A DNA stretch of 64,000 bases from Aliiroseovarius marinus (GTDB lineage: Bacteria > Pseudomonadota > Alphaproteobacteria > Rhodobacterales > Rhodobacteraceae): contig NZ_SAIT01000011.1 of assembly GCF_004360145.1 (NCBI RefSeq), forward strand, positions 124,001-188,000, written 5' to 3'. Below, one piece after another: positions 38,802-42,722 of this stretch. A program made the translations under genes and the position numbers. The stretch's first letter is position 1. Every line of letters begins with the position of its first letter. Under the pieces are notes generated by a model that was not told the DNA's origin, ran no database searches, and worked only from the letters and a program-made list of their open reading frames with translations.

Positions 38802-39386
38802 TTACCGCTTGCGGTCGCGACGCGAGGACATCGGCTGGAACGCCACGCCCACGTGGGCTTCGCAATAGGGCTTGCCTTGCTGCACGGCCAGACCGCAGAA
38901 CCAGAAGTCATCGGTGGCCGGGTCGCCCACGGGCCATTTGCAGGTCTTCTCGGTCAGCTCCATCAGGTTCAGACGCTTGGCGCCTTTTTCCACTTCACTG
39001 ACCTTGGCCAGGGCCTCGGGGCTGATTTCATTGGCCGAGGGTTGCGGGGGCAGGGGTTGGCCTGCCGGAATGATCGCCTTGCGTGCGGGCGTTGCGGGCT
39101 TGGCTTCCGCGGCAGGAGCCTCTTCGACTTTCGGCGCGGGTTCGGCGGCCTTCTTCGGCGCTGCCTTGGGCTTGGCGGCGGGTTTGGGTTTGGCGGCTGC
39201 CTTGGCCTTGTCCGCAGCAGGCGCTTTGGTGCCGCCTGCCGAGCGGTTGGACAGGCCCAGACGATGCACCTTACCGATGACCGCATTGCGGGTCACACCA
39301 CCAAGTTCCTTTGCGATGACCGAGGCCGATTGACCCTCGCCCCACATCTTTTTCAGGATTTCTACGCGCTCGTCGGTCCAGGACAT
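38802..39386 (-). CDS. gcrA: Cell-cycle regulator GcrA
   Basis: GcrA works with sigma-70 to activate genes through methylated GANTC sites in alphaproteobacteria. The 194-residue protein has the hallmark N-terminus SWTDERVEILKKMWGEGQSA with a helix-turn-helix continuing to GKVHRLGLSNR. A long alanine/lysine/proline linker (about 52-105) follows. The C-terminal RNA polymerase-binding part has CKWPVGDP and FCGLAVQQGKPYC. It is transcribed alone. The start is clear. Confidence 0.95.
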   Translation of the reverse strand: MSWTDERVEILKKMWGEGQSASVIAKELGGVTRNAVIGKVHRLGLSNRSAGGTKAPAADKAKAAAKPKPAAKPKAAPKKAAEPAPKVEEAPAAEAKPATPARKAIIPAGQPLPPQPSANEISPEALAKVSEVEKGAKRLNLMELTEKTCKWPVGDPATDDFWFCGLAVQQGKPYCEAHVGVAFQPMSSRRDRKR

Positions 39387-39494: not shown

Positions 39495-40370
39495 TTACTT
39501 GGCCTGTCGTCCTTCGCGCCACGCCAGAATGGCGCCGCCCGCCACGATAATGGCCGCGCCAAGCGCGCTGACCCAGCCCGGTGCCACGCCGAACAGGCCG
39601 AAATCATAGAGGGCGGCGAAGATCAGTGTGGCGTAGGAAAACGGCACGACAAAGCTGGCATCCGCGCGCCGGATCGCCTGCACATAGCACGCCTGCGCCG
39701 CGGCCATCATGAAGCCAAGCGCTGCCAGCACGGCCCATTGCGCGGGGGTGGGGGCTTGCCACACGAACAGCACCGCACAAGAGGCAATGGTTAGGCCGAT
39801 CGCATTGTTGATGACGAGGATCTGCAGGGGTGCCTCGCGCCCTGCCAGTCGTTTAATGAAGATGGTTTCGAGCCCCAAGATTGCTGCGGCCCCAAGGGCG
39901 AGCAGCGCCGCCGGGTCGAAGCTGGAGGCACCCGGGCGGATCAGGATCAGCGCACCGGTCAGTGCCATCGCGACCGATAGCCAGCGCCACGGGCCAACCC
40001 GTTCGCCCAGCAGAGGGATCGCTAGCAGCATGGCGAAGACAGGGTTCAGGAACGAGATTGCCGTGGCATCCGCCAGTGGGATCAGCGTGGCGGCGGCAAA
40101 CATCAGCGTCACACCCGCAAACCCAGCAGCAGACCGCGCGGCGTGGAGTTTCAGGTTGGGGCGCGTGATGCGCAGCCGTCGAAACAGCGCGAAGCTGCCG
40201 ATCGCCAGAAAAGCGAAGGTAAACCGCCCGTGGGTGATCTGAAACGGGTGTAGGGGATCGCCCAGAAGATCCTTCCCCGCCAGCTTCGCCATCAGCGTCG
40301 TGCCCGCGATGAACACGGTGGCCACCAGCATGAAGCCAACAGCAGCGAGGGGAGAGTTGCGCGTTTCCAT
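39495..40370 (-). CDS. EamA/DMT-family transporter
   Basis: This 291-residue inner-membrane protein has about ten helices in two EamA repeats (about 10-140 and 155-285). FAAATLIPLADATAISFLNP and FVVPFSYATLIFAALYDFGL are the corresponding positions of the two halves. It resembles the SAM/RhaT-like exporters of roseobacters. The substrate is unknown. It is divergent from the argD-argF operon, sharing a roughly 250-bp gap that holds a short arginine-rich ORF. Confidence 0.88.
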   Translation of the reverse strand: METRNSPLAAVGFMLVATVFIAGTTLMAKLAGKDLLGDPLHPFQITHGRFTFAFLAIGSFALFRRLRITRPNLKLHAARSAAGFAGVTLMFAAATLIPLADATAISFLNPVFAMLLAIPLLGERVGPWRWLSVAMALTGALILIRPGASSFDPAALLALGAAAILGLETIFIKRLAGREAPLQILVINNAIGLTIASCAVLFVWQAPTPAQWAVLAALGFMMAAAQACYVQAIRRADASFVVPFSYATLIFAALYDFGLFGVAPGWVSALGAAIIVAGGAILAWREGRQAK

Positions 40371-40443
40371 CCTTTCCCTCTACGCGCGCGCATCCCGATT
40401 GAAAAGGCTGGACAGAACAGGCGCGATCCCCTATCCCGCCCCC

Positions 40444-40497
40444 ATGAACAAACGCCTGCATATCGCTGAAACCCGACGCCGACGCACCCGCGCCTGA
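40444..40497 (+). CDS. Candidate arginine-rich leader peptide upstream of argD-argF
   Basis: This is a 17-codon ORF, MNKRLHIAETRRRRTRA, with six arginines, four in a row near the end. All six are CGC or CGA codons, which the same tRNA-Arg (ICG) reads. It ends 120 bp before argD. The stop is followed by overlapping palindromes (40517-40536). It fits the layout of a biosynthetic leader peptide. No clear ribosome site precedes it, so this is a hypothesis. Confidence 0.35.
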   Translation: MNKRLHIAETRRRRTRA

Positions 40498-40516
40498 CGT
40501 CCCGTTCGTTTGTTCC

Positions 40517-40536
40517 TGCGCAACGTTTGCGCAAAC
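40517..40536. promoter_or_regulatory. Overlapping palindromes between the leader ORF and argD
   Basis: TGCGCAA and TTGCGCA pair around CGT (40517-40533). The overlapping GTTTGCGCAAAC (40525-40536) is perfectly self-complementary. Only one can form at a time, as expected for alternative RNA structures or for an operator. There is no U-run after either. Confidence 0.35.
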
Positions 40537-40617
40537 CCATCCAAAACCATCTGGAAATTGTTGACTTGAGGCCCGCCATCCGGCACCCAAAGGCTTCTTT
40601 TTGAAGAGGATACCACC

Positions 40618-41799
40618 ATGATCCCGTCGCTTTTGCCGACCTATAACCGTGTTGACCTTGCGTTTGAGCGTGGTCAGGGCAGCTGGCTTGTCACGGATGG
40701 GGGCGAGCGATACCTGGATCTGGGCGCGGGCATCGCGGTGAACGCGCTGGGCCATGCCCATCCTGCACTGGTCGAGGCTCTGACCGAGCAGGGCGCGAAG
40801 CTGTGGCATGTGTCGAACCTCTATAAGATCCCGCAGCAACAGACGCTGGCCGATCAGCTGGTCGACTTGACCTTTGCTGACACGGTGTTCTTTACGAACT
40901 CGGGCACCGAAGCCTGCGAGCTGGCGGTGAAGATGGCGCGGAAGTACTGGTCGGACAAAGGCGAAGACCGCGCGCGGATCATCGGCTTTGAGGGCTCGTT
41001 CCACGGACGGTCGTCCGCAGGCATCGCCGCCGCGGGTGGCGAAAAGCTGACTGCTGGCTTCGGCCCGCTGCTGCCCGGTTTCACCCACCTGCCCTTTGGC
41101 GACCTCGACGGTCTGACCAACGAGTTGGCCGAAGGCGACGTCGCCGCCGTGATCATCGAACCCGTACAGGGCGAGGGTGGCATCCGCCCCGTCCCCGATG
41201 ACGAGCTGAAAGCCATCCGCGCTGCCTGTGACAACGCAGGTGCGCTTCTGATCTTTGACGAAGTGCAATGCGGCATGGGCCGGACCGGCAAGCTCTTCGC
41301 GCACGAGTTCTCGGGCGTCACGCCGGATATCATGATGGTCGCCAAAGGCATCGGCGGGGGCTTCCCGCTGGGTGCTGTTCTGGCAACTGAAGAGGCCGCC
41401 AGCGGCATGGTCGCGGGCACCCATGGGTCCACCTATGGCGGCAACCCGCTGGCTTGTGCCGTCGGTTCGAAAGTGACCGAGATCGTCGCCGATCCCGAAT
41501 TTCTGGCCGAGGTCAGCCGCAAGGCCGGTCTGTTCCGTCAGAAGCTGGAGGGCCTTGTCGCCGCGCACCCGGACGTCTTTGAAGGCGTGCGTGGGTCGGG
41601 TCTGATGCTGGGCCTGAAATGCAAAGCGACCAATATGGATGTTTTGGCGAAATGCTATGACGCGCAGCTGCTCTGCGTGCCTGCAGGCGACAACGTGCTG
41701 CGTATCCTGCCCGCGCTGACCATCGAAGACGAAGATATTGCCGAGGCGATCACCCGCCTTGAAACCGCTGCCAAGGCCGTGGAGGGCCAGAGCACATGA
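40618..41799 (+). CDS. argD: Acetylornithine aminotransferase
   Basis: This PLP-dependent enzyme converts N-acetylglutamate semialdehyde to N-acetylornithine in arginine synthesis. The 393-residue protein has [56 protein letters not shown] and the PLP lysine in [15 protein letters not shown] (about 238-252). A GAAGAGG ribosome site precedes the ATG, within a possible small hairpin. The stop overlaps the argF start (ATGA), so translation is coupled. Confidence 0.95.
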
Positions 41800-42722
41800 A
41801 ACATTTCCTCGACATCAACGCCACGGAAACGGGCGAGCTGAAAAACATCATCTCGGAAGCGCACCGGATCAAAGCCGCGCGTGCGGGCCGCCCCAAAGGC
41901 GCCCTGGACGACGAAAAGCCGCTGGACGGCCACATGGTCGCGCTGATTTTCGAAAAGCCCTCGACCCGGACGCGCGTCAGCTTTGACGTGGGTGTACGCC
42001 AAATGGGCGGTGAAACCATGGTTCTGTCCGGCTCTGAAATGCAGCTGGGTCATGGTGAAACTGTTGCCGACACCGCCAAGGTGCTGTCCCGCTATGTTGA
42101 CATGATCATGATCCGGACCTTCGAAGAAGCGACCCTGCTCGAGATGGCAGAATATGCCGACGTGCCGGTGATCAACGGGCTGACCAACCGCTCGCACCCC
42201 TGCCAGATCATGGCCGACATCCTGACGTATGAGGAACATCGCGGCTCGATCGAGGGCAAGAAAGTGGTCTGGGCGGGTGACGGCAACAATGTCTGCGCCT
42301 CGTTCCTGCACGCCGCAGGCCAGTTCGGCTTTGACCTGACATTCACCGGTCCGGAACCTCTGGACCCGGAAATGGCCTTTGTCGAGGAAGCCCGCGCCAA
42401 AGGCGTGAATGTCGAGATCGTGCGCGATCCGGTGAAGGCCGTGGAAGGTGCGGATCTTTTGGTCGCCGATACCTGGGTGTCGATGCATGATGCGCCCTCG
42501 GCCCGCGAGCGTCGCCACAACCTGCTGCGTCCCTATCAGATCAATGACGAGCTGATGGCGCACGCCAAACCCGACGCGCTGTTCATGCACTGCCTGCCCG
42601 CACACCGGGAAGAGGAAGTGACGAACTCGGTCATGGACGGCCCGCAATCGGTGATCTTTGACGAGGCCGAAAACCGCCTGCATGCCCAGAAGGCCGTCAT
42701 GCGCTGGTGTTTGGGCAAGTAA
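41796..42722 (+). CDS. argF: Ornithine carbamoyltransferase
   Basis: This enzyme makes citrulline from ornithine and carbamoyl phosphate. The 308-residue protein has the carbamoyl phosphate motif [15 protein letters not shown] near residue 52, [11 protein letters not shown] near 130, and [11 protein letters not shown] near 268. The last holds the catalytic cysteine of this family. It starts inside the argD stop. A terminator follows at 42743. Its carbamoyl phosphate would come from the CarB encoded 7 kb upstream. Confidence 0.97.

Follow-up and report, generated by a model that had tools for sequence, protein, structure and literature searches.

Sequence comparison among relatives indicates that the arginine leader peptide gene upstream of argD-argF in Aliiroseovarius marinus is real and conserved. 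We estimate a probability of roughly two in three that this gene controls argD-argF by ribosome-mediated attenuation, acting via the supply of charged tRNA-Arg(ICG). A more specific version, which we put forward tentatively and with more doubt than confidence, is a leaderless self-closing attenuator. Its 5' end would lock on the post-stop segment, about one ribosome per transcript would test arginyl-tRNA(ICG), and the empty C-over-G leader would be ended by Rho; moreover, a terminal CGA run before argD would have been used more than once in Alphaproteobacteria lacking ArgR. The features concerned lie on the forward (+) strand of the window (i.e., the whole stretch of 64,000 nucleotides that was analyzed), as follows.

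40409..40437, + strand: promoter-like element P1 (TGGACA, 17 nt, TATCCC), with the start predicted on the first base of the leader ATG
40444..40497, + strand: leader ORF encoding MNKRLHIAETRRRRTRA followed by a stop, predicted to be leaderless
40446..40454, + strand: 5' arm of stem P0, GAACAAACG (pairing permutation test)
40474..40485, + strand: Arg run CGA CGC CGA CGC, the proposed sensing codons
40475..40501, + strand: weak hairpin H1, Arg run with post-stop bases (no covariation found)
40498..40560, + strand: C-over-G stretch (20 C and 12 G in 63), a possible Rho loading region
40507..40515, + strand: 3' arm of stem P0, CGTTTGTTC (pairing permutation test)
40517..40533, + strand: hairpin H2, TGCGCAA-CGT-TTGCGCA, without a U-run (folding and comparison)
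40561..40597, + strand: TTGAC, followed 17-18 nt on by CACCNA; includes inverted-repeat arms and may be a second promoter, an operator or an RNA hairpin
40618..41799, + strand: argD, acetylornithine transaminase (NCBIfam)
41796..42722, + strand: argF, ornithine carbamoyltransferase (NCBIfam)

The first-pass annotation had described a 17-codon, Arg-rich ORF ending 120 bp before argD, with six Arg codons, four of them consecutive and all CGC or CGA. Codon reading and coordinates agree with this description, and NCBIfam backs the identities given to argD and argF. The Arg codons occupy positions 4 (CGC), 11-14 (CGA CGC CGA CGC) and 16 (CGC) of the ORF, and 120 nt separate the leader stop from the argD ATG at 40618. 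The argF start lies over the argD stop, with an overlap of four bases. Among the matches listed, the closest named relative of the window argD was from A. halocynthiae (95%). No Rfam family model matched the leader region. On the opposite strand, 73 nt from the leader ATG, is the start of a carboxylate/amino acid transporter-like gene (39495-40370, - strand; NCBIfam, below cut-off). Two genes from argD is a GcrA-like gene (38802-39386, - strand), the N-terminal half of which matches NCBIfam GcrA below cut-off; passages of PMC3616915 place gcrA and argD in divergent orientation in S. meliloti.

Conservation was assessed at two depths. Among 21 Aliiroseovarius genomes, including the window's own, the region was present in 20 (one contig was cut), and both the RRRR run and the exact motif CGACGCCGACGC were kept in all 20 loci (window's own counted). 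In the comparison that had been suggested along with the original call, the Arg run is kept in relatives (20/20 in the genus), while the remaining peptide is not conserved across the wider set. The wider sample comprised the best 80 of at least 594 argD loci, mostly titled as Rhodobacteraceae genera; four were near-copies of genus loci, and 78 had enough upstream sequence. A leader and an argD locus of the Rhodobacteraceae type are also present on one contig titled Enemella evansiae (L089), possibly a mislabelled or mixed assembly. We called a leader strict if an ATG, preceded by TA in the -10 position, opened an ORF of 6-30 codons that held, close to its end, two neighboring codons from the set CGA/CGC/CGT, with CGA occurring at least once. 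Such leaders were detected in 68 of the 78 loci. A nearly identical test, which differed in making no provision for ATGATG starts, gave 0/78 in the reverse complement, 0/78 further upstream and 0/78 inside argD. Five of the 10 loci that failed have leader-like ORFs without TA at the -10 place. A second test, in which the reading frame was not demanded and ORF choice carried no codon weighting, used the motif CGACGYCGACGY. In 40/40 loci carrying it (of 80), an ATG at promoter spacing led into this motif in the same frame with no intervening stop, at five distances from the ATG (27, 30, 33, 39 or 42 nt); these 40 loci do not amount to 40 independent events because they are related.

The structure tests started from 95 rows. 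Eight were omitted (L023-L026, near-copies of genus loci, and L021, L033, L083 and L101, with a wrong ATG or spurious), as were five more without TTGAC (L068, L077, L078, L097 and L100); the remaining 82 were thinned by redundancy to 68. An ORF pick weighted by CGA count and promoter score was used for the pairing, folding, promoter-alignment, peptide and C-over-G tests.

Codon choice in the run was restricted. With a codon-blind ORF pick, the runs of the 68 nonredundant leaders contained 126 CGA, 117 CGC and 13 CGT codons (n=256), and CGG and AGR were absent (0/256). The CGA-weighted pick gave 127 CGA, 119 CGC and 12 CGT of 258, with no CGG, AGA or AGG. CGA represented 5/63 of the isolated Arg codons in the same leaders by the codon-blind pick and 5/67 by the weighted pick, the latter also including 10/67 CGG. 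In argD of the same loci, CGA and CGG made up 7.5% and 24% of Arg codons, respectively. CGA, CGC and CGT, which make up 256/256 of the run codons, are all read by one tRNA, ICG. We take tRNA-Arg(ICG) to be the reader of the run codons in this genome, where a guessed anticodon-loop pattern gave no match to its gene. An assay based on the Salmonella his leader showed slower reading of CGA than of CGC/CGU (PMC4046918, passages). The CGA bias need not reflect a sensing device, because passages of PMC6386406 describe arginine control by Salmonella orf34 as independent of codon identity, with rare and common Arg codons being equal.

ArgR (PF01316) was found in none of 41 genomes (25 from the same family and 16 others of the class), with positive results in 9/14 controls. 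Because the Arg-run ORF is conserved, its run consists of ICG-read codons only and ArgR was not found, the ORF is best interpreted as a leader that senses arginine. The first-pass annotation had proposed an arginine-sensing ORF that refolds the argDF leader; the conserved in-frame run and the missing ArgR favor its sensing part, whereas the folds it proposed fared less well (see below).

Similar leaders were sought at argD loci outside the family. An ATG ORF with RRR was present in 7/57 loci, and in 3 of these the run closed the ORF; the reverse-complement control gave 1/57. Two of these three loci belong to a second family (G080; loci L200-L227 and L229), in which 31 of 39 genomes had a match and 29 loci were analyzed. 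SD-led leaders ending in a CGA-rich run preceded argD in 27/29, the leader stop lying 48-110 nt from the argD start, which in this family is often a GTG. Codon choice is less strict there, since CGG accounted for 12/101 Arg codons near the leader end. The spacer is also C-over-G (median percentile, 0.975), and a stem between Arg run and spacer received no support in this family (z 1.4). In a third family, represented by one genome (G238; L171/L199), argD is preceded by MAATALVLPGFRRRR and a stop, with four CGA codons. At another locus (L157, genome G029), reading by eye showed no Arg leader upstream of argD but a promoter-like pair, TTGACA and GATACT, with a U-tailed inverted repeat downstream of it.

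P1, which had not been noticed before, would account for one objection to the leader. TGGACA-N17-TA-N10/11-ATG was found in 20/20 genus loci with the region. When the 68 nonredundant loci were aligned on the ATG, TA occurred at -12/-11 or -13/-12 in 61, T at -35 in 87% and C at -1 in 82%, a signal that is inflated a little because the ATG pick was partly weighted by promoter score. The predicted transcript start on the leader ATG fits a leaderless mRNA. Inspection of the upstream sequence revealed no SD, in line with the first-pass objection that the ORF has no clear ribosome site; a transcript beginning on the AUG itself would be leaderless, which would explain this lack. Partial texts on S. 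meliloti report 171 mapped leaderless starts (PMC3616915) and a leaderless trpL (PMC10117765).

The most pronounced RNA signal was stem P0, which was likewise absent from the earlier annotation. Across the 68 loci, the 5' 14 nt paired with their own post-stop segment at a mean of -10.4 kcal/mol, versus -7.7 with the segments of other loci (permutation z -10.8; 0/5000 permutations). Control pairings gave z -1.3 and -0.7. H1, the hairpin involving the Arg run, gave z -0.9 and was rejected as a covarying stem. In a scan of 195 pairs of windows, the strongest pair joined the 5' end to the post-stop segment (z -6.0; nearby windows, to -3.6), and the strongest without the 5' end joined the dyad arms just after TTGAC (z -3.5). 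No antiterminator partner for the P0 3' arm was found among these pairs. The window leader alone folded no better than shuffles (z -0.17); the mean z values over the 68 loci were -1.75 for the ATG-to-TTGAC stretch and -1.22 for its post-stop part. RNAalifold predicted no pairs for 25 loci, two of which (L024 and L025) lacked the first base in the input; in several rows of the underlying MAFFT alignment, the 3' arm is out of place.

The structures originally proposed were two mutually exclusive palindromes and a small CTTC-loop-GAAG hairpin over the argD ribosome site. For the former, given without coordinates, we found the overlapping pair GTTTGCGCAAAC (40525-40536) and H2. Counterparts of H2 occur at the same place in many relatives, whereas GTTTGCGCAAAC is kept in only 7/21 genus loci and was rejected or rated weak. 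The small hairpin is present in the window, but its exact form (CTTC-N5-GAAG) occurs in 5/21 genus loci; CTTT-N3-AAAG is possible in 10 others. A stem over the argD ribosome site was found in 39/68 wider loci, versus 32.6 (sd 4.3) in shuffles, and we rejected this hairpin as a switch. The folds of the earlier annotation are weakly supported by these comparisons; the RNA feature that does have support is stem P0, in which the 5' end pairs with bases just past the leader stop.

The TTGAC element bears on where argD transcription begins. All 68 loci have the element immediately upstream of argD, with inverted-repeat arms that covary (z -3.5), and an A stands at +24 in 79% of these loci at fixed spacing to TTGAC, which was the alignment anchor. 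The element may be a second promoter, and the argD mRNA could start from TTGAC at 40561, downstream of the leader end at 40497. TTGAC-N16-18-GCACC was rejected as a promoter class of the window's own genome (26 matches versus 31 in the control). An unlikely alternative builds on this element: P1 would produce a separate short leaderless RNA or peptide ending near H2, which acts elsewhere or is a by-product, and argD would be transcribed from its own TTGAC promoter. The fixed spacing of TTGAC and A is as expected from this alternative, the closed 5' end formed by P0 could stabilize a small RNA, and rnTrpL of S. meliloti is a leaderless attenuator sRNA according to passages of PMC10117765. The lack of enrichment of the TTGAC pattern in the genome argues against it, as does the absence of any such leader before argG or argC at 16 genus loci (8 argG and 8 argC).

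The step that would end transcription is less clearly marked. A scan of the window detected no terminator-like site, consistent with the earlier remark that a U-run terminator is missing, and the last post-stop stem is followed by at most two T in 8 nt at 51/68 loci. These results, together with the lack of any competing pairing among the 195 pairs of windows, make it improbable that the leader is a classical attenuator whose intrinsic terminator would be either H2 or, in the TTGAC region, the hairpin GAGGCC/GGCTTC together with U's. Such a terminator would be in keeping with the common H2 counterparts, the covarying dyad arms, the presence of GGCTTCTTTT after the dyad in much of the genus and, in the third-family genome, a U-tailed inverted repeat after the RRRR leader (read by eye). 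C-over-G is the composition that Rho prefers. Among same-length windows of its own locus, the post-stop stretch had a median C-over-G percentile of 0.95 across the 68 loci, compared with 0.45 upstream of P1, although the leader ORF already reached 0.84 (0.838); the value for this stretch in the window's own locus was modest (0.865). This composition suggests a role for Rho and would fit a terminal stall that shields the stretch.

What the ribosome senses could in principle be the peptide rather than its codons. The nascent peptide SpeFL reportedly binds arginine or ornithine in the ribosome. A similar sensor here would be served by the basic run at the end of the peptide, which stops 0-5 codons before the leader stop in the wider set, and by H[I/T] preceding the run in 17/68 loci. 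We consider it very improbable, given that residues outside the run show no conservation across the 68 loci, whereas the run codons are conserved. A DNA site or a chance Arg-rich ORF without translation is disfavored to the point of near dismissal. The motif CGACGCCGACGC is indeed conserved at the nucleotide level, but the frame is kept and open in 40/40 loci across five distances with controls at 0/78, which speaks against a chance or DNA-only motif.

Under attenuation by tRNA-Arg(ICG) supply, the following sequence of events may be envisaged. RNA polymerase would start at the AUG, and a ribosome would load on the bare 5' end. When arginine is plentiful, the ribosome would pass the run and leave at the stop, and P0 would close over the start region, preventing a second ribosome from loading. 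Transcription through the ribosome-free C-over-G stretch would then stop before argD, probably by Rho. When arginyl-tRNA is short, the ribosome would halt at the CGA/CGC codons, 0-5 codons before the stop, and would cover the stop along with some of the P0 arm, allowing transcription to continue into argDF. The TTGAC element near argD may give a basal supply.

In ribosome-mediated attenuators of the his/trp type, a leader peptide with end-product codons precedes a biosynthetic operon. The leader described here resembles them in having such a codon run, conserved in frame, before a biosynthetic operon; unlike them, it had neither a U-tailed terminator nor alternative terminator/antiterminator stems that we could find. 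Sinorhizobium rnTrpL is an intrinsic attenuator. As portrayed in passages of PMC10117765, rnTrpL/peTrpL is similarly a leader peptide gene of Alphaproteobacteria starting at the AUG (a start that is predicted here), and it differs in responding to tryptophan. The leader of Salmonella speF, orf34, is also a short ORF in which arginine is sensed through adjacent Arg codons, and has a Rho-dependent stop for which the counterpart here is predicted from C-over-G composition (PMC6386406, in part). The same passages describe features unlike those found here: orf34 controls ornithine decarboxylase, has an SD and an RNase G step, and has its two Arg codons as codons 12 and 13 in a total of 34, whereas the present leader is predicted to be leaderless, precedes arginine biosynthesis genes and has four Arg codons near its end (PMC6386406). 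The Rhodobacterales cysS uORFC-8-2 motif, from the same order, is a short uORF with tandem relevant codons; it differs in concerning cysteine and in having two stems and a U-run (PMC8632094, in part). Similar in another respect is the S. meliloti DUF1127 uORF attenuator, in which premature termination depends on the uORF and a C-rich sequence can be hidden by a ribosome or by base pairing. As far as the excerpted text goes, however, it senses translation efficiency, has a pairing that involves the RBS and C-rich codons, and serves no amino-acid operon (PMC12218461). A leader peptide for P. aeruginosa carA is cited in a passage of PMC4997734. Among the matches listed in the open-licence literature (titles, abstract starts and some passages), none described a leader peptide for arginine upstream of argD.

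The proposed mechanism would explain how arginine synthesis is tuned in Rhodobacteraceae, a family in which ArgR was not found. The leader would also provide a natural test of CGA choice in sensing how far tRNA is charged, and of the locking of a leaderless mRNA by its 5' end.
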